From positions 1,178,001-1,242,000 of the forward strand of contig NZ_NIDE01000001.1 in NCBI RefSeq assembly GCF_002197845.1: DNA of 64,000 bases, read 5' to 3'. The DNA comes from Fimbriiglobus ruber. GTDB lineage: Bacteria > Planctomycetota > Planctomycetia > Gemmatales > Gemmataceae. Below are positions 11,196 to 64,000 of this stretch, in pieces. The translations under genes were made by a program, and so were the position numbers. Positions within the stretch are counted from its first letter, which is position 1. Each line of letters begins with the position of its first letter. The notes beneath the pieces are model-generated. The model was not told where the DNA came from, searched no databases, and saw only the letters and a list, made by a program, of their open reading frames with translations.

Positions 11196-11683
11196 TTAAG
11201 ATTATTGCCTTCGTACAGAATTTAAAACTCAGACTTGCCCGTTATCCGCCTAATCTGCCAGAGTCGACAAAAACCTTGGCTCATGAGGCGGCCGGGGTGG
11301 AAAAAGGGCAGAACCATCCGGTCGCAATCGCCCCCGCGCCGCGCTCGGCGCGGGTCTCCGACCCCGCCGCTCTTCCGACCGCAGGTCTCCCGACGCTCGC
11401 CCCCTCGGACACCGCCGCCTGCGTCCGGCTGGCGTGGGAGACCTGCGGTCGGAAGAGCGGCGGGGTCGGAGACCCGCGCCGAGCGCCGACCCAAGAGCGG
11501 CGGGGTCGGAGACCCGCGCCGAGCGCCGTGCGGGGGGCGAAGAGTGGCGGGGTCGGAGACCCGCGCCGAGCGCCGGTGCGGGGGGAACGTCGTGGGACGG
11601 GAGACCTGTGGTCGGGCCGAAGCACCTCGGCCGCCTCACGAAGCCACAACCTTTATCCATCCAAACGCGACTTGTCGAAAGCA
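11196..11683. repeat. Palindromic repeat cluster, family GGGTCGGAGACCCGCGCC
   Basis: Non-coding. From ~11,330 an arm CGCTCGGCGCGGGTCTCCGA...CCGCAGGTCTCCC (to ~11,390) is followed by a centre (GACGCTCGCCCCCTCGGACA...) and then by the inverted arm (11,430-11,487). Two further direct copies of GGCGGGGTCGGAGACCCGCG follow at ~11,498 and ~11,547. The same family recurs at ~33,650-33,995 with its centre in the opposite orientation. Long open frames across the cluster are a consequence of the biased repeats. Confidence 0.8.
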
Positions 11684-19139: not shown

Positions 19140-19540
19140 TGTGCCTGGTCGGCGCTAAACTACTGGTGCCTGGGCTTGATCATCCGGACGGCGTTTTGTG
19201 GGGTGAAGTGTTGGGGCTCGGCCCCAAACCCCGCCGGAGGGTCCGAACCCCTCCGGACCTCCCCACCGGCTCCCGGTCCGTGGGGCGATCCCAAGGCGGA
19301 TCGCCCCACGGACCGCTCGCGGGACCGTTTCGGGAACCGAGCGAAGAGTCACTGTCTTCCCGCCGCCATCAACCCAGACCCCTGCGAGCGACCCGCGGAC
19401 GAATCCGCTCTGGGATTCGTCCGCGGGTCGGGAGCCGGTGGGGAGGTCCGGAGGGGTTCGGACCCTCCGGCGGGGTTTGGGGCCGAGCCCCAAGAAGCCT
19501 CCCGCCAGGACGCCCTGGAATCCCTACTCCCCGACTGCCG
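19140..19540. repeat. Palindromic element, copy A (arms, two hairpins, centre)
   Basis: The core, 19211-19492, has ~70-bp inverted arms beginning TTGGGGCTCGGCCCCAAACC and ending in its complement. Each arm is followed inward by a hairpin (GGGGCGATCC...GGATCGCCCC on the left, GACGAATCC...GGATTCGTC on the right) around a ~75-nt unique centre. Short flanks outside the arms (GTGCCTGGT... and CCTGGAATCC...CCGACTGCCGA) are shared with copy B, so the unit spans about 19,140-19,540. It fills the gap between the UDP-sugar dehydrogenase and the hydrolase gene; no gene inside. The rest of 19027-19645 holds a candidate terminator at 19598-19629. Confidence 0.85.
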
Positions 19541-20937: not shown

Positions 20938-21314
20938 TGTGCCTGGTTGGCTGGTCATGTGGACGGTTTTTGTGGGGTGATGTCTTGGGGCTCGGCCCCA
21001 AACCCCGTCGGAGGGGTTGGACCCCTCCGGACCTCCTCACTTGCTCCCGACCCGGGGAAGAATCCCAGAGCGGATTCTTCCCCGGGTCGCTCGCAGGGGC
21101 CTGAGTTGATTTTGGCGGGAAGACATCGACGGCTCGCTCGGTTTGAATTTGGGCAACAAACGGCTCCGCGAGCGATCCGGGGGGCGATCCGCTTTGGGAT
21201 CGCCCCCCGGATCGGGAGCAGATGGGAGGTCCGGAGGGGTTCGACCCCTCCGGCGGGGTTTGGGGCCGAGCCCCAAGACGCCCCCCCTGGAATCCCCAGC
21301 CACCCGACTGCCGA
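20938..21314. repeat. Palindromic element, copy B, with its centre inverted relative to copy A
   Basis: The core, 20984-21277, has the same ~70-bp inverted arms as copy A, and the outer flanks have the same orientation (GTGCCTGGT on the left, CCTGGAATCC...CCGACTGCCGA on the right). The centre and both inner hairpins match the reverse complement of copy A: for example TCTTCCCGCC and CCGAGCG appear here as GGCGGGAAGA and CGCTCGG. The element fills the space between the hydrolase gene and the 3' end of the HxlR-type gene. Confidence 0.85.
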
Positions 21315-22320: not shown

Positions 22321-22525
22321 CTGGGCACGAAATCGGCGCGCCATCGCCCCTCAGTCGACCGTAGGGTCCGCTGTGCGGACCGGTTATTGCGGTCAGTCGT
22401 GCGGCCCCGAATCCGGCGTCCCATCGCGGGGCGTTGGAAATAACCGGTCCGCACAGCGGACCCTACAAAACTGCAGATAAACCTTAACGGGGCACGTACT
22501 CGGCGCGCCATTATTCCTCAGTTAG
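22316..22525. repeat. 28-bp perfect inverted repeat between ~40-bp direct repeats
   Basis: Perfect 28-bp arms (22361-22388 and 22439-22466, GTAGGGTCCGCTGTGCGGAC...) around 50 nt. Outside lie two imperfect direct repeats of CCTTAACNGGGCACG...CGGCGCGCCAT...CCTCAGT (~22,316-22,355 and ~22,483-22,520). The first overlaps the stop codon of the preceding gene. The layout resembles a MITE with duplicated flanks. Confidence 0.8.
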
Positions 22526-26054: not shown

Positions 26055-26306
26055 GGCCTTCTCCCGCCCCATGTGCCGATCCCCGTTGCCCTGTTGATCG
26101 AAGTATAAACGCCCGCCGAAAGGCCGCGCTCTGGTTCTTGCTTTCAAATTCGATTTCTGCGGAAGGATGGTCACCGAAAACACGTCGCCATCGAAAATGC
26201 GCACGCGGAGGCTGTCTTTTGAGCAAGGTCGTGTGGTATCATGCCGGACGTTCTCCCCGCCGCTCGTTTCACTTTTGTTGGCCGACTCCGCCCCGGAGCG
26301 TTCGTC

Positions 26307-29300
26307 ATGGCTCGCCGTCCCGCGCTCGGATTAGTCGTCGCGTTGGCTCTCGCTTCACCGGCATGGTCGGCCGAAGTCGATTACCTCAAGGATGTGAAAC
26401 CGACACTCGTCGCGCGGTGCTACGCCTGCCATGCCGCCTTGCAACAAAAAGGCGACCTGCGCGTTGATACGGTCAAATCCCTGCTCGAAGCCAAGGTGAT
26501 CGTGCCCGGCAACAGTGAGGCGAGCCCGCTCGTCGCACACGTCGTGGGACGCGACAAATTCGCGAAAATGCCGCCGCCGGCCGACGGCGAAGCACTAACG
26601 ACCCGGCAGGTCGAGCTCCTCCGCGCGTGGATCGACGGCGGTGCGATCGCGCCGGCGAACGATCCGCCCGACCCCGACCCGCGCGACCACTGGGCGTTCC
26701 GCGCCCCGGTCCGGCCGAAGGTGCCCGAGAATGGCAAAAGTCACCCGATCGACGCCTTCCTCGTGGCCGAGTGGGTCAAGCGCGGGCTCGTTCCCCAGAC
26801 CCCGGCCGCCCGCGGGCTGTTGCTCCGCCGCGTCACGCTCGACCTGACCGGCCTACCACCAACACCGGAAGAATACGAAGCGTTCGCGAAAGACACCTCT
26901 CCGGATGCTTACGAGAAAGTCGTTGAGCGGTTGCTCGCCTCGTCACACTACGGCGAACGGTGGGGCCGCCACTTCCTTGATGTCTGGCGTTACTCGGACT
27001 GGTGGGGACTCGGGGCCGAGGTTCGCAACAGCCAGAAGCACATGTGGCACTGGCGAGACTGGGTCATCGAGTCGCTCAACGCCGATAAGGGTTACGACCA
27101 ACTCGTCCGCGAGATGCTGGCGGCCGACGAGTTGTACCCGACCGACCCGAACAAGCTCCGGGCCACCGGCTACCTCGCCCGGCAGTATTTCAAATTCAAC
27201 CGCACGACCTGGATGGACGAGACGATCGAACACACGGCCAAGGCGTTTCTCGGCCTGACCGTGAATTGCGCGAAATGCCACGACCACAAATACGACCCGA
27301 TCACGCAAGCCGATTACTACCGCCTGCGGGCGATCTTCGAGCCCTACCAGGTTCGCACGGACATGGCCCCCGGCGAACTCGATTACGAGAAAGACGGAAT
27401 CCCCAGGGCCTTCGACTGCAACCTGGATACCCCTACCTACCTGCACGTTCGAGGTGACGAGCGGAACCCGAACAAATCCCGCGTCATCAAGCCGGCCGTC
27501 CCGTCATTCCTGGCGCCGGACGGGGTCAAGATCGCGTCGGTGAAACTTCCACCCGAAGCCCACCTGACGGGACTACGAGCCGCCGTAGTCGAGACGCACC
27601 TCAAAGCCGCCCGAGAACGAATTGTGGCGGCGCGGGCGACCCTCGAAGTCGCCAGGAAGACGCTCGCCGAAGCCGAGGTGTTGGCGAAAGCCGCATCCCC
27701 AAATGGGACGAAGCCGACGGCCGCGAAACCGATCGTTCGCGACGATTTCGCCGCCGCGAAGCCGGACCTTTGGGACATCCGCGACGGTACGTGGAACTAT
27801 CGAGACGGCAGGCTCGTTCAATCGCGGGTAGGCTTTCGGCGTGCGGCCCTCAGGCTCAAGCAACTCCCGCCGAGCGACTTTGAAGCCAGGCTGAAGTACA
27901 TACCCACGGGCGGCGACATGTGGAAGTCGGTCGGCATCGTCTTCGATGGCGCCGCCCAGACGGAAGTGTTGGCTTACCTCAGCGCTTACGCCGGCGGCCC
28001 GAAAGCGCAAGTGTCTTACAAGAAAGACGGGAAGGATGTTTACCCGGCCGAGGCCGCGAAAGCACGATCGGTCGATCTCAATAAACCCCACGAAATCACC
28101 CTGCGCGTTCGCGGCACGTTGGTGAACATGGAAGTCGACGGGCAACTCGCGGTCGCGTACCGTTTGCCGATCGCCCGTGTTCGCGGGCACCTGGAAGTGA
28201 TCGCGTTTGACGCGACGGCCGAGTTCCTGGCATTTGAACTGAGCGAACTGCCGCCTGGGCTGACGCTCGCTGAGCCGGGCCAAGCGGGAGGCAAGTCTGG
28301 CCCCGGCCCGCTCAATCTCGATCAGGCAAAGCGCGGCGTGACGGTCGCGGAAAAAGCGCTGTCGACGACCGAAACACAACTTGCATCGATTCAAGCGCGG
28401 GCCGCCGCGGACAGGGCGCGGTACGATCAATCACCCGCGGAAAACCTTGCCTCACTCATTACCGCGGCAGTCCGTGCCGAAAGTACCGCCGCACTCGCCA
28501 AGGCCGACGAAGACGTGGTCCGTGCGGACCTGGACGTGGCTCGCGCGGTCGCCGACAAAAAGGCCGAGGCCGAGAAGAAACTGGCCGCGGCGAAAGGGGC
28601 TTTCGAGACCGCCCGCAAGGCGCTCGACGCGCCGGGTACGTCGTACACCTCACTCACGGGATCGCTGAAATCGCTCGAATCGAACCTCGAAACCGAGGCG
28701 TCCCGTAACAAGGCCTACCCGGCGACCAGCACCGGCCGACGGACCGCGCTTGCGAACTGGATCGCCGACCGCAACAACCCGCTCACCGCCCGCGTGGTCG
28801 TCAACCATCTCTGGGCCCGGCACTTCGGCAAGCCGCTCGTGGCCACCGTCTTCGACTTCGGCCGCAAGGGCACCCGCCCGACCCACCCGGAACTGCTCGA
28901 CTGGCTCGCGGTCGAGTTGACCGACCACGGCTGGAGCCTGAAGCGCATCCACCGGCTGATCGTGACGTCGACCGCTTATCGGATGAGTTCGACGACCGCC
29001 GGCGCGCCCGCGGTCGATCAAGATGTAGACCCGGAGAACCGTTATCTCTGGCGACAAAACCCGATCCGCATGGAGTCCCAGGCCGTCCGCGATAGCCTCC
29101 TGCACCTCGCCGGCCGGCTCGACCTGACATTGGGTGGACCGCCCGTGCCGGTGTCCGCACAAGACACCTCGCTGCGGCGGAGTGTTTACTTCTTCCAGTC
29201 GCACAACGAACACCACAAGTTCCTGTCGCAATTCGACGACGCCAGCGTGTTGGAGTGCTACCGGCGGACCGAGAGCATTGTCCCGCAACAGGCGCTGGCA

Positions 29301-29579
29301 CTCTCGAACAGCCAATTCGCCATCGCCACGAGCGCGGCCATCACGCAAAGACTGAACACTCGGCTCGGGAGAGTGACCGATGACGTTTTCGTGACCACCG
29401 CGTTTGAGATGCTGCTGGGATCGCAACCGACGGCCGACGAAAAGCGCGCGTGTTTGGATGCGCTGGCCGAATGGCAAAAGCTGCTGGGTGAACAAAAACA
29501 CGCCGACGCGGCCGGGAAAGCGCGGGCCAACCTGGTAGCCGCGTTGGTCAACCACAATGACTTCGTCACGGTGCGGTGA
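26307..29579 (+). CDS. PSCyt1/DUF1549/DUF1553 exported protein with LamG-like insert (1090 aa)
   Basis: Large exported planctomycete protein of a family with unknown function and presumed haem binding. Signal peptide 1-22; PSCyt1 with haem motif C-Y-A-C-H (residues 38-42) and KMPPPADGEALT; DUF1549 (about 150-370) with RVTLDLTGLPPTPEE, GERWGRHFLDVWRYSD and a second C-A-K-C-H; an inserted ~150-residue beta-rich domain resembling concanavalin/LamG folds (WNYRDGRLVQSRVGFRRAAL to FLAFELSELPPG); alanine-rich coiled coil; then DUF1553 with NPLTARVVVNHLWARHFGK and RRTESIVPQQALALSN. ATG 26307 starts a proper signal peptide. Its usual partner, DUF1501, follows after an inserted GxxExxY cassette. Confidence 0.93.
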   Translation: MARRPALGLVVALALASPAWSAEVDYLKDVKPTLVARCYACHAALQQKGDLRVDTVKSLLEAKVIVPGNSEASPLVAHVVGRDKFAKMPPPADGEALTTRQVELLRAWIDGGAIAPANDPPDPDPRDHWAFRAPVRPKVPENGKSHPIDAFLVAEWVKRGLVPQTPAARGLLLRRVTLDLTGLPPTPEEYEAFAKDTSPDAYEKVVERLLASSHYGERWGRHFLDVWRYSDWWGLGAEVRNSQKHMWHWRDWVIESLNADKGYDQLVREMLAADELYPTDPNKLRATGYLARQYFKFNRTTWMDETIEHTAKAFLGLTVNCAKCHDHKYDPITQADYYRLRAIFEPYQVRTDMAPGELDYEKDGIPRAFDCNLDTPTYLHVRGDERNPNKSRVIKPAVPSFLAPDGVKIASVKLPPEAHLTGLRAAVVETHLKAARERIVAARATLEVARKTLAEAEVLAKAASPNGTKPTAAKPIVRDDFAAAKPDLWDIRDGTWNYRDGRLVQSRVGFRRAALRLKQLPPSDFEARLKYIPTGGDMWKSVGIVFDGAAQTEVLAYLSAYAGGPKAQVSYKKDGKDVYPAEAAKARSVDLNKPHEITLRVRGTLVNMEVDGQLAVAYRLPIARVRGHLEVIAFDATAEFLAFELSELPPGLTLAEPGQAGGKSGPGPLNLDQAKRGVTVAEKALSTTETQLASIQARAAADRARYDQSPAENLASLITAAVRAESTAALAKADEDVVRADLDVARAVADKKAEAEKKLAAAKGAFETARKALDAPGTSYTSLTGSLKSLESNLETEASRNKAYPATSTGRRTALANWIADRNNPLTARVVVNHLWARHFGKPLVATVFDFGRKGTRPTHPELLDWLAVELTDHGWSLKRIHRLIVTSTAYRMSSTTAGAPAVDQDVDPENRYLWRQNPIRMESQAVRDSLLHLAGRLDLTLGGPPVPVSAQDTSLRRSVYFFQSHNEHHKFLSQFDDASVLECYRRTESIVPQQALALSNSQFAIATSAAITQRLNTRLGRVTDDVFVTTAFEMLLGSQPTADEKRACLDALAEWQKLLGEQKHADAAGKARANLVAALVNHNDFVTVR

Positions 29580-29700
29580 GAAGACAGAATGGCCACAAAA
29601 AGGCACAAAAATGCACAAAAATAAGATAAATAATAAAAACATCCACTGTCGGATTAGAACTATGAATACGTTTTCGACAACTTTCTGCCGGGTGATTGAT

Positions 29701-30096
29701 ATGAAAGATTGGTCATCGATCAATGAGTTGTGTGACATCGTCCGCGAGACGAGCTTTGCCATTCATTGCTACCTCCGAAGTGGCCATCTGGAAAAGGTCT
29801 ACGAGAATGCCCTGGCGCATCGTCTCCGTCTACGCGGACTGAGTGTGGAACAGCAATTCCCCCTAAACGTGTTTGATGAAGACGGGACCGCACTCGGGGT
29901 CTATTATGCCGACCTTTTTGTCGAAGGATGTCTAATCATCGAATTGAAGGCCGCACGCGGTGTCGATAACGAACACATTGCCCAACTTCTCGGCTACTTA
30001 CGTTCTTCAAAGGTCGAAACAGGCTTGCTGATCAACTTTGGTTCGTCAAGACTGTACGTAAAGAAATTCCTAATGACTGACGTCGATAACCTCTGA
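29701..30096 (+). CDS. GxxExxY protein, PD-(D/E)XK-like (131 aa)
   Basis: Member of the GxxExxY family (PDDEXK_3), proposed nucleases of unknown role. The name motif is G-H-L-E-K-V-Y near residue 29, followed by ENALAHRLRLRGLSVEQQ. The catalytic-type core is Y-Y-A-D-L-F-V...I-I-E-L-K-A (D, then E-x-K), and the end has the usual QLLGYLRSSKVETGLLINFG and KKFL. The start ATG 29701 (MKDWSSINELCDIVRETSFA) matches the family's usual N-terminus; upstream codons lie in the inverted-repeat region. AT-richer than its neighbours. It interrupts the DUF1553-DUF1501 pair. Confidence 0.85.
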   Translation: MKDWSSINELCDIVRETSFAIHCYLRSGHLEKVYENALAHRLRLRGLSVEQQFPLNVFDEDGTALGVYYADLFVEGCLIIELKAARGVDNEHIAQLLGYLRSSKVETGLLINFGSSRLYVKKFLMTDVDNL

Positions 30097-30147
30097 TTTT
30101 TATGCTCTGCATTCTTAAATCTCTGATTTTTATGCTCTGCATTCTTA
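30091..30147. repeat. 30-bp direct repeat, two copies
   Basis: CTCTGATTTTTATGCTCTGC plus ATTCTTA occurs at 30091 and again at 30121. The first copy contains the last codon and the TGA of the GxxExxY gene; the second ends in the right inverted repeat. Confidence 0.85.
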
Positions 30148-30213
30148 TTTTTTGTGGTTTTTTGTGCCTTTTTGTGGCCATCGCTTTGTGACTTTGTTTT
30201 CGAGGCTTACCGC

Positions 30214-31644
30214 ATGTTCCGTCGCGCCTTCCTCGCTGATATGGGCCTGGGCTTCACCGGCCTCGCGCTGGCCGCCATGCTCCACCGGGACGGCCGCGCC
30301 TCGTCGTCCACGCCCTGGGCTCCGCCCGACGGGAAGCCTCACTTCGCGCCGAAAGCCAAATCCGTCATCTGGCTGTTCATGAACGGCGGGGTGAGCCACC
30401 TGGAAACGTTCGACCCGAAGCCGGAACTCGATAAGTTCGCCGGCAAGACCATCACCGAGACGCCGTACAAGGACGTACAGAACCCCGACAAGCTCAAACT
30501 CGCCCGCGTGACCGTCGTGAACGACGCCAACGGCCAGCAGCGGAACAAGCTGTTCCCCACGCAGGTGAAGTTCCAGAAGCGCGGCAAAGCCGGCACGCTA
30601 GTCAGCGACTGGCTGCCCCACACCGGGGAATGCGTCGACGACATCGCCGTCGTCCGCTCGATGTTCACGACCGACGACAACCACGGCGCGCAAACGCAAT
30701 TCCACACCGGCCGCCACATGCTCGACGGCGAATTCCCGACGCTCGGCGCCTGGGTTCACTACGGGCTCGGGACGTTGAACCAGAACCTCCCGCAGTTCGT
30801 GAGCATGGGCCGCCGGGAATACTGGAACCTGAAAGACGGCCTCTACCTCGGCCCGGCCCACGACGCCGTGCCCGTCCGCGTCGACCCCGCCAACCCGCTC
30901 GACTACGGCAAGCCCGAAGGCAGCGTCTCGTCCGCCGAGCAGAAAGTCGGCTTCGACCTCGTGGGCAAACTGAACCACCTCCGCGCCGTCGAATACCCGG
31001 ACGACCCCGCACTCGCCGCCCGCATCAAGTCTTACGAACTCGCGTTCCGGATGCAGAAGTCCTTGCCCGACGTCCTCGACTTCGCGAAGGAGTCGGCCGA
31101 GACCAAGGCTCTGTACGGGTTGGACCGGCCCGAGACGCGCGAGTTCGGCATGCAGATGCTCGCCGCCCGGCGGATGGTCGAGCGCGGCGTGCGGTTCGTC
31201 CAGGTTCAGCACGGTGCCGGCGGGGCGGGTGTGTGGGACGCACACGGCGGTCTGCGGGGGAACCACGAGAAGAATTGCCTGGCCGTCGATAAGCCCATTG
31301 CCGGCTTACTAAAGGATCTGAAACGGACGGGCCTGTTGAAGGACACGATCGTGGTGTTCGCCACCGAGTTCGGCCGCACCCCTGGTACCCAAGGCGCGGA
31401 CGGTCGCGACCACCACATTTTCGGGTTCAGCGTCTGGCTCGCGGGCGGCGGGATCAAGGGCGGGGTCGTCCACGGCGCGACCGACGAACTCGGCTTCCAC
31501 GCCGTCGAGAACCGCCACTACGTCACCGACGTCCACGCCACCATCCTGCAACTCCTTGGCCTCGACTCACGGAAGCTCGAAGTACCCGGGCGCAAGCGAC
31601 TGGAGATCGACCACGGCAAGCCGATCGGGGAGATTATGGGATAA
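30214..31644 (+). CDS. DUF1501 exported protein (476 aa)
   Basis: Sulfatase/alkaline-phosphatase-like fold family DUF1501, found in many copies in planctomycetes next to DUF1549/DUF1553 proteins; role unknown, possibly cell-surface or polysaccharide related. Features: an N-terminal [20 protein letters not shown] export signal with paired arginines, FLMNGG-type [65 protein letters not shown] and [16 protein letters not shown] 30214 ([10 protein letters not shown]) is the family-typical start; the frame remains open upstream into the inverted repeat. Expected partner of the 26307 gene. Confidence 0.92.
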
Positions 31645-33546: not shown

Positions 33547-34016
33547 TGGCGACCTCGGCCGCGGGCGTCCTCATGTATATGATCCCTGCGGTGGCACCAT
33601 ACCTTCAAAAATCTTCCCGGGCGGGTGCAAAAAGTTGCCCGTCGCGATCGCCCCCCGCACCGGCGCTCGGCGCGGGTCTCCGACCCCGCCGCTCTTCGAC
33701 GCAGGTCTCCACCACCACCCTGCCACAGGCGGCGGTGTCCGAGGGGGCGAGCGTCGGAGACTGCGGTCGGCAGAGCGGCGGGTCGGAGACCCGCGCCGAG
33801 CGCAGCGCGCTGGTATTTTTATCGCTCGACCTGTCGGAACCTTGCGGCCGTCGCGCTCGCACGGTCTCGACCGCCGTCTGCCGACGCCAGGTCTCCACCA
33901 CCACCCTGCCGCAGGTGGCGGTGTCCGAGGGGCGAGCGTCGGGAGACCTGCGGTCGGCAGAGCGGCGGGGTCGGAGACCCGCGCCGAGCGCCGGGACCCG
34001 TCGCGATATTCCGGCG
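33547..34016. repeat. Second cluster of the GGGTCGGAGACCCGCGCC palindromic family
   Basis: Non-coding. From ~33,640 the cluster has arm CGGCGCTCGGCGCGGGTCTC, a centre GGCGGCGGTGTCCGAGGGGG and the inverted arm (~33,775-33,805). A second half-copy runs ~33,885-33,995, with AGGTCTCCACCACCACCCTG and GGGGTCGGAGACCCGCGCCG. Compared with the 11.3-kb cluster, the centre lies in the opposite orientation. The promoter of the sigma-factor gene must also lie here. Confidence 0.75.
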
Positions 34017-55879: not shown

Positions 55880-56301
55880 CGGTATCCTCGTACACGATCC
55901 GGGCGGTGGGTCCGCGTCGGCCCCCGGTGTCCCCGGGAGGGTGCCCAGTGGGTCCGCGTCGGCCCCCGGTGTCCCCCGGCGGGTGCCCAGTGGGTCCGCG
56001 TCGGCCCCCGGTGACCCCGGGAGGGTGCCCAGTGGGTCCGCGTCAGCCCCCGGTGTCCCCGGGCTCCCGCCCGGGTCTACGTTAGGCCGCCCCGGAGGGG
56101 CGGAAATCCGGCGCCCGTGTGAGGGACTGGACGCCTCGGCCGTCACGGTCTTCCGCCCCTCCGGGGCGGCCTAACGTAGACCCGGGCGGGAGCCCGGGGA
56201 CACCGGGAGAAGGACCCCACCAACTACTGGAAACCGCCCGTGTACCGGGGCGGAACACCGACGAAATCGGCGGCACACATTGCTCACGTCCGGAGGTTCG
56301 C
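55880..56301. repeat. 42-bp tandem repeat (4 units) followed by a 57-bp perfect inverted repeat
   Basis: Units of GTGGGTCCGCGTCGGCCCCC and 22 more bases start at 55906, 55948, 55990 and 56032, differing by one to three substitutions; the fourth is truncated. It runs into an inverted repeat with perfect 57-bp arms at 56049-56105 and 56151-56207 (GGTCTACGTTAGGCCGCCCC inside the arm) around 45 nt. No gene; proline-rich frames across the units are repeat artefacts. The promoter of the next gene lies in the last ~90 bases. Confidence 0.88.
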
Positions 56302-62230: not shown

Positions 62231-63379
62231 ATGCCGAAGCCGTTGAACGTCGGGATGATCGGGTACGGGTTCATGGGCCGCGCGCACTCGAACGCGTACA
62301 AGCAGGTCGGCCAGTTCTTCCCGTCCGAACACAAAGTGGTCCTCAAGGCCGCGTGCGCCCGGGACGCCGAGAAGGCGAAGGCGTTCGCCGACCAGTGGGG
62401 TTACGAGTCGATCGAGACGGACTGGCGGAAGCTGATCGCGCGGAAGGACATCGACGTCATCGACATCTGCACGCCGAACAACCTACACAAGGAGATCGCC
62501 CTCGCCGCCGCCGCGGCCGGGAAGATGATCCTGTGCGAAAAGCCCCTGGCGATGACGGCCGCCGAGGGCAAGATCATGGTGGACGCGGTCGAGAAGGCCA
62601 AAGTCCCGAACATGGTCTGGTACAACTACCGCCGGATTCCCGCCGTCACGCTCGCCAAGAAACTGATCGAAGAAGGCCGACTCGGCAAGATCTTCCACTA
62701 CCGGGCCAAATTCCTCCAGGACTGGACGATCAAGTCCGACCTGCCGCAGGGCGGCCAGGGGCTCTGGCGGTTGGACGTGGCGGCCGCCGGCAGCGGCGTC
62801 TCGGGCGACCTACTTGCTCACTGCATCGACACGGCCATCTGGCTGAACGGCCGCCTGGACACCGTCTGCGCGATGACGGAGACCTTCGTCAAGGAACGGA
62901 TGCACAACCTGACGGGCAAGGTGGAGAAGGTCGGCATCGACGACGCCTGCACGTTCATGGGCCGGTTCGAGAACGGGTCGCTGGCGAACTTCGAGTCGAC
63001 CCGGTACGCCCGCGGGCACAAGGCGTTGTACACGTTCGAGATCAACGGCGAGAACATGTCCCTCTTCTGGGACCTCCACGACCTGCACCGGCTGCAAATC
63101 TTCGATTACAAGGACGAGGGGAAGATCCGCGGGTGGAAATCGATCCACGTGACCGACAACAGCCCGGACCACCCGTACATGGCGAACTGGTGGGTGCCGG
63201 GCCTGGCGATCGGGTACGACGCGAGTTTCACGCACCAGGTCGCGGACTTCATCGCCGGCCTCGAATCCGGCACGCCGGCCAGCCCGACCTTCCGCGACGC
63301 CTACGAAACCCAGCTCATCCTCGACGCGGTCCTCGATTCGGCGAAGAGCGAGAAGTGGGTCCACGTCCCGAAAGACTAA
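62231..63379 (+). CDS. Gfo/Idh/MocA family NAD(P)-dependent oxidoreductase (382 aa)
   Basis: Rossmann motif [13 protein letters not shown] at the N-terminus, [12 protein letters not shown], and the catalytic-type block [13 protein letters not shown] with E-K-P. The C-terminal beta-sheet domain has [28 protein letters not shown], and [19 protein letters not shown]. Substrate unknown; sugar or cyclitol dehydrogenase likely. ATG 62231 with GGAG upstream; the open frame further upstream is the tail of the Uma2 gene in another frame. The TAA is the first base triplet of a 40-bp inverted repeat. Confidence 0.93.
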
Positions 63380-63503
63380 GAATATTTGGCCGCAAAAAGG
63401 CACAAAAAACGCAAAAAAATTAGACGCGAAAGAATTGCGTCGGATGGAATTTGTTTGGTGTCATTTTTGCGTTTTTATGCCTTTTTGCGGCCAAATATTC
63501 TTA
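63377..63503. repeat. ~40-bp inverted repeat joining two convergent stop codons
   Basis: Left arm 63377-63417 starts TAAGAATATTTGGCCGCAAA; the right arm 63464-63503 is its reverse complement with two or three differences. The left TAA is the stop of the oxidoreductase and the right TTA is the stop of the convergent gene. The core GGCCGCAAAAAGGCACAAAA matches the ends of the GxxExxY cassette at 29589-30181 (GGCCACAAAAAGGCACAAAA). The 46-nt interior has no gene. It may also act as a bidirectional terminator. Confidence 0.85.
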
Positions 63504-64000
63504 GTTGTCGTCCGGTTTGACATCCAGGTCGAGAATCAGGTCGGCGACCGTCTTCTGATGCACTTCCGGAATAACGCCGAGGATGAGTCTGTCCCCCGCG
63601 GTGCTGAATTTCACGCCGTCGAATTCCAACACGCGGAGAGTGTTCACGACCGTCTGGGCGTCCGCATTCTTGAGTTCAAACGTGCGGATTCGGTGCGCCC
63701 GCGGGAGAGCCGCCTTCTCCTCACGGTCGAGAGCCGCGACGATTTCTTCCGCGAGTTGAACGTGCCGCTCGGTGCCGCGAACGATGAGGACGTTTTTGCT
63801 CGTCGTGACTCGCCAGAGGATGGTTCGGTGACCGTCGCCATTGAGCGGAATTGAGTTGCCGCCAAATCCCCCCATCTGTCCACCGAACCCACCCACGCCG
63901 CTGATGCCGCCAAAACCATTTGGTGGCAGCCCGCCCACCCCGGCTAGTCCTAACATGCCCGCAATCCCACCATTGCTCGGTGCGCCACCGAAGCCGCCCA
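63501..64000 (-). CDS. Secretin N-domain-like protein, 3' end only (start beyond the window)
   Basis: The frame is open to the window edge, so only the last ~166 codons are visible. A glycine-rich stretch (GGFGG-type, about 45 residues) precedes a compact domain: TTSKNVLIVRGTERHVQLAE, EIVAALDREE, then FELKNADAQTVVNTLRVLEF. The LxN(A/V)xxQ-type region resembles the N1/N2 (secretin_N) modules of GspD/PilQ proteins. No secretin barrel follows before the stop, so it is not a complete secretin. The TAA (TTA at 63501) lies in the inverted repeat shared with the convergent oxidoreductase. Confidence 0.6.
   Translation of the reverse strand, partial: GGFGGAPSNGGIAGMLGLAGVGGLPPNGFGGISGVGGFGGQMGGFGGNSIPLNGDGHRTILWRVTTSKNVLIVRGTERHVQLAEEIVAALDREEKAALPRAHRIRTFELKNADAQTVVNTLRVLEFDGVKFSTAGDRLILGVIPEVHQKTVADLILDLDVKPDDN

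Follow-up and report, generated by a model that had tools for sequence, protein, structure and literature searches.

What is a small nuclease-fold gene doing between long inverted repeats, inside a gene pair that most relatives keep closely spaced? The question is raised by one locus in the window, the 64,000-nt stretch of Fimbriiglobus ruber DNA analysed here. The first-pass annotation had described a PD-(D/E)XK-like GxxExxY gene between 38-bp inverted repeats, in an AT-rich cassette that splits a DUF1549/DUF1553-DUF1501 pair, and we found that each part of this description holds. The whole element (29589..30181, no strand assigned) is 593 nt long with a GC of about 0.44, against 0.64-0.66 in its neighbours, a PSCyt1-DUF1549-DUF1553 protein gene upstream (PSCyt1/PSCyt2/PSD1; 26241..29579, + strand) and a DUF1501 protein gene downstream (30214..31644, + strand). 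GC3 is 0.56 in the cassette gene and 0.78 and 0.88 in the neighbour genes. In most relatives the gap between the same two neighbours is only 7-65 nt.

The left inverted end (29589..29626, + strand; ATGGCCACAAAAAGGCACAAAAATGCACAAAAATAAGA) consists of three tandem ~10-nt units, and the right inverted end (30143..30181, - strand) is its reverse complement. Aligned without gaps the repeats match over 33 nt at 94% (29589-29621 with 30149-30181), and with gaps they extend to 38/39 nt (29589-29626 with 30143-30181). The chance expectation of the 20-nt end core in the window, allowing up to three mismatches, is 0.00. Folded as a single strand the cassette gives a z of -7.3, in a structure closed by the repeats, and no known RNA family in Rfam was matched by the element. 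Two tandem copies of a 30-nt unit (30088..30147, + strand), which overlap the 3' end of the GxxExxY gene, lie between that end and the right arm.

GxxExxY is, to our knowledge, a common orphan family without a known role. The gene in the window (29701..30096, + strand) is intact and encodes 131 aa from the ATG at 29701; an alternative in-frame ATG is found at 29662. The protein passes both family profiles with ease, scoring 109.7 bits against TIGR04256 (cut-off 35) and 101.2 bits against PF13366 (PDDEXK_3; cut-off 22). Its AlphaFold model is a confident single domain (pLDDT 93.8). Searching by sequence we found no solved relative; by fold, Foldseek gave the Cas4 protein SSO0001, MGME1 and lambda exonuclease as the best solved relatives, weakly but consistently (E about 1e-3). 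Across 46 proteins the conserved residues are E31, D71, E81-x-K83 and Q95-x3-Y99, and the PD-(D/E)XK catalytic residues are kept, D71 and E81 being invariant and K83 nearly so. The QxxxY pattern marks the RecB/Cas4 group. GxxExxY therefore has in common with Cas4, RecB-like proteins and lambda exonuclease both the predicted fold and the motif pattern D, ExK, QxxxY, but it is only 131 residues long, the similarity is weak, and it lacks the four-cysteine cluster known for Cas4. The model and the motifs make it plausible that the protein is an active nuclease with DNA ends or single strands as its substrate.

Several other homes for such a gene were considered and rejected. PADLOC gave only weak, partial matches (best E 0.0025) and no clear defence family. 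A typical GxxExxY protein was matched in only 8 of 72,556 plasmid records, which speaks against plasmid cargo, and the window protein had no PHROGs match, which speaks against phage cargo.

We searched the 12.36-Mb genome for the 20-nt end core (up to three mismatches) and found 77 copies, compared with 0 for the reversed control. Among 22 distinct sites that we read, a subset of the genome's end copies rather than a complete census, 19 consisted of two facing ends and the other three were single ends. The 19 paired sites are the window element, whose outer core bases enclose 589 nt, and 18 pairs of 90-192 nt that contain no gene. The window contains a gene-less pair at 63375..63505 (no strand assigned), a short palindrome that carries the same ends (GGCCGCAAAAAGGCACAAAA) and is a putative non-autonomous relative. 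Further palindrome subtypes are present in the genome, for example TTAGCCACAGAGRTCACAGAG and CACCGCAGAGGGCGCAGAG, and gene-less pairs were seen for other end subtypes too; for the commonest subtype (TTAGCCACAGAGRTCACAGAG) the genome holds no gene with the same ends. The genome's other GxxExxY gene, which lies between a nuoC-like and a nuoD-like gene, is also enclosed by inverted ends, and these differ in sequence.

At four loci of the same genome (L021, L253, L255 and L249) one palindromic element sits inside another, often close to the middle of the outer hairpin, and at L253 a direct duplication of ~22-30 nt surrounds the nested insert. The window also contains long GC-rich palindromes that belong to other repeat families (11331-11536, 19211-19493, 20974-21287, 33664-33990 and 56051-56205), and its palindrome at 22361-22466 (GTAGGGTCCGCTGTGCGGACCGGTTATT) was found again inside L249.

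To score bracketing, we aligned the sequence upstream of each GxxExxY gene with the reverse-complemented downstream sequence and set a threshold of at least 17. We found that 28 of the 31 GxxExxY genes in Gemmataceae reached this score, while none of 116 control windows did. A cross-phylum set spanned about a dozen phyla by record title (Planctomycetota, Pseudomonadota, Chloroflexota, Cyanobacteriota, Verrucomicrobiota, Acidobacteriota, Bacteroidota, Lentisphaerota and others); here 54 of 77 genes scored at least 17, compared with 2 of 228 control windows from the same loci, and with a threshold of 15 the number of genes rises to 64. The cross-phylum scan used a tighter alignment, the first having been too diverse, so this survey is biased to the large subfamily; the window's own subfamily was covered by a separate scan of the phylum. 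Bracketed elements are mostly 430-600 nt long.

Two outcomes that would have spoken against the first-pass annotation, ends found only as terminators at unrelated loci and GxxExxY genes never bracketed elsewhere, are thereby excluded. The most deflationary account of the ends, that they are ordinary terminators or chance repeats whose association with the gene is accidental, can point to the mostly intergenic position of the elements. However, an isolated arm forms little structure (-4 to -6 kcal/mol), the pairing is of arm with arm across the gene, and the control windows are almost empty of such brackets. We regard this account as extremely improbable.

If ends and protein belong together they should diverge together, and this is what we observed. 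End similarity falls as protein distance rises (Mantel rho -0.516, matched in 0 of 2000 permutations; 112 loci). On the protein tree the end classes change 10 times, compared with 33.2 when labels are shuffled. The class labels are simple patterns written after the ends had been seen, and the Mantel test is independent of them; the tree was built from short rows with few columns and many of its inner forks are weakly supported. The window protein groups with eight others (SH-aLRT 97), drawn from eight further families of the phylum and 53-62% identical to it. GCC[A/G]C[A/G]A-type ends are found in eight of these nine; in the phylum scan the same kind of end was found in 7 of the 8 closest relatives of the window protein. 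Sister clades have CACAGAT-type ends, and a large clade has ACC[A/G]C[A/G][G/A]AG ends. Since one family can hold proteins of two clades, each clade with its own ends (f50 and f71), species relatedness alone is insufficient to account for the match. There is good support for nuclease and palindromic ends being a cognate pair. The annotation had also offered a passenger mobilised in trans; because ends and protein diverge together, this is less likely than a cognate pair. In the open literature searched, which included no preprints and few subscription papers, we found no description of GxxExxY mobility, of these end sequences or of their association.

How recently did the element arrive? Two genomes from two other genera (G046 and G087) carry an orthologous GxxExxY gene in the same DUF1549/1553-DUF1501 gap, 60-69% identical to the window protein. 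The ends of these orthologues have diverged, and the arms pair well in the window element and in G087 and weakly in G046. With the same place occupied in three genera, the window insertion is old. The suggestion of a small mobile element with the nuclease as its only gene therefore stands in part: GxxExxY is the sole gene inside the element and bracketing is general, but this is not a recent insertion, because G046 and G087 carry the orthologous gene at the same place.

Elsewhere turnover is likewise slow and persistence largely vertical. Intergenic sites differ between genera in being occupied or empty, and in the sister species G008 and G009 most short elements are common to both. All five Microcystis genomes with the flank have the gene there, at a single site. 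Joined-flank searches in G008/G009, and Microcystis, yielded no clean recent insertion or movement event; where the sister species differ, the sites are element-for-element or rearranged, and no clean empty site was seen. An insertion at L103/L104 was followed as a candidate and rejected as not being an element of the GxxExxY kind. At two sites (L229/L320 and L279/L287) G009 and G008 carry different palindrome classes at the same intergenic position, as if exchanged: a GxxExxY-type palindrome in one species faces a four-helix-type heptamer palindrome, or a REPIN-like repeat, in the other. In Microcystis (L136 2860-2998; L355-L358) the ends have expanded to a number of ~33-nt tandem copies that varies between genomes.

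We counted end-pattern matches in 95 genomes and found 1664, compared with 78 for the control. Genomes that have a GxxExxY gene show a higher repeat density than those that lack one (2.40 vs 0.43 per Mb, p = 1.5e-5), in a statistic that ignores relatedness, and density also correlates with genome size. Three genomes are repeat-rich (G012, G020 and G024; 29-64 matches) with no GxxExxY gene detected; conversely, the searched pattern is sparse in several genomes that do have the gene.

These repeat-rich genomes bear on the idea that GxxExxY is host-useful or defence-type cargo whose ends are moved in trans by another enzyme, a RAYT or a transposase of some other kind. The gene is under purifying selection (pN 0.10-0.25 vs pS 0.60-0.85) and has been kept at one site across three genera, as would be expected of useful cargo. 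The genome also holds three RAYT-like Y1 transposase genes (L122-L124), all away from the element. Long inverted repeats with a sequence of their own flank two of these (L123 and L124) but not L122; these repeats are unrelated to the GxxExxY ends, and RAYT was rejected as their mobiliser. The tracking of end sequence across subfamilies and phyla is unexpected for cargo, and the PADLOC matches are too weak and partial to suggest a defence role. We consider cargo an improbable reading.

The boundaries of the elements carry information on mechanism. The annotation had called for a search for target duplications, and this came back empty: in 65 elements no direct repeat of at least 3 nt abuts the boundaries. 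Instead, the arms continue outward as inverted repeats into locus-specific sequence, for ~10-12 nt on average and for 16-20 nt in some. In 12 orthologous short elements of G008 and G009 we found 12 pairs changed on both sides with pairing kept, against ~1.4 expected, and stems differ at 8.5% of sites compared with 14.1% of unpaired sites. This pattern of outward inverted complementarity without direct repeats argues against cut-and-paste by a DDE enzyme, and it would suit processing of a hairpin, insertion into palindromes or correction by template switching.

Among loci whose two neighbours share one orientation, the GxxExxY gene points the same way as its neighbours in 67 cases and the opposite way in 4, with neighbours called by a simple longest-ORF rule; examples are the nuo genes and fabD-fabG in Sphingomonas. 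The simplest reading of this bias is dependence on read-through transcription.

Both the orientation and the compensatory changes could also suit an element that acts as RNA, like the intervening sequences (IVS) of 23S rRNA. Its stem would be cut by RNase III inside operon transcripts, the protein would bind or mature its own RNA, and any spread would be rare and RNA-mediated or by recombination. There is a precedent in the Coxiella IVS, which is 428 nt long and whose 28-bp inverted-repeat stem is cleaved by RNase III (PMC4990558). A parallel is also found within Gemmataceae, where four-helix-bundle genes (TIGR02436) lie between genes and are bracketed by tandem 7-8-nt units such as AGTGGTCAGTGGTCAG. 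TIGR02436 is also the family of the S23p proteins of 23S rRNA IVS. In the survey that covered these genes 25 of 33 loci scored at least 17. Two of these 25 are RAYT loci, which have repeats of their own; of the four-helix loci, about 23 of 30 have the same design and are bracketed by the 7-8-nt units. The four-helix loci (L092-L121) have inverted arrays of such units, for example AGTGGTCAG, AGTTTTCAG and GGGTGAAG, and form a parallel intergenic element class. Against an RNA element, however, excision would be needless for the dozens of gene-less palindromes that lie between genes, the GxxExxY fold resembles DNA exonucleases, and selection for expression also explains the orientation. An RNA element is to our minds unlikely.

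The preferred reading is that the GxxExxY nuclease itself spreads the ends, and we put its probability at roughly 0.6; both the movement and the driving role of the enzyme are inferred. The element class would consist of one GxxExxY nuclease gene with its own inverted ends, and would be widespread. In single-stranded DNA (or RNA) the two ends, each of about three ~10-nt units, would pair to form a long hairpin, and the short gene-less palindromes with the same ends would be non-autonomous copies. GxxExxY, as a Cas4/lambda-exonuclease-like PD-(D/E)XK enzyme, may recognise its cognate units in hairpin form and process them. Such processing could slowly spread copies with and without the gene, in much the way that RAYT spreads REPINs, with the GxxExxY gene presumably expressed by read-through transcription of the host operon.

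How does this compare with known systems? REPIN-RAYT systems combine long vertical persistence and low turnover with hairpin-forming inverted doublets and few cognate genes flanked by the repeat (PMC3116915, PMC8049555). The GxxExxY system is similar in that the gene is flanked by its repeat, short inverted doublets predicted to form hairpins occur in dozens of copies, and turnover is slow. It differs in that the enzyme is a PD-(D/E)XK nuclease and not an HUH Y1 tyrosine transposase, so that no HUH Y1 gene is part of the element, and in that its ends consist of about three tandem ~10-nt units. Short gene-less copies that share the inverted ends of a gene-bearing copy are also a feature of the MITEs of DDE insertion sequences, but GxxExxY elements have neither a DDE transposase gene nor, in the 65 elements examined, a direct target duplication, and their arms extend into locus-specific sequence and co-evolve. 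The 23S rRNA IVS with S23p is also an element of ~430-600 nt with long inverted ends round one small gene. However, the window element has an unrelated protein and an unrelated repeat unit (IVS-type units are 7-8 nt), and it lies between protein genes and not in rRNA. The GxxExxY element thus works like REPIN-RAYT, yet falls outside REPIN-RAYT, DDE and IVS by what defines membership of each.

A wider proposal, to which we give slightly less than an even chance, is that GxxExxY proteins mobilise a so far unrecognised class of transposable element, one that occurs across phyla and is defined by a lone Cas4-like PD-(D/E)XK nuclease and hairpin ends of tandem ~10-nt units. These enzymes would also spread the abundant CACAGAGG/CACAAAGG-type palindromes of many genomes, and the S23/four-helix elements would be a parallel class with 7-8-nt units. 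Linking GxxExxY with common unexplained intergenic palindromes gives a testable function for both. If true, this would be a second, enzymatically unrelated REPIN-RAYT-like system, and S23/IVS perhaps a third. It bears on the old suggestion, cited in PMC4990558, that the IVS ORF has a role in its own mobility, so that intervening sequences may encode a component of their own movement.
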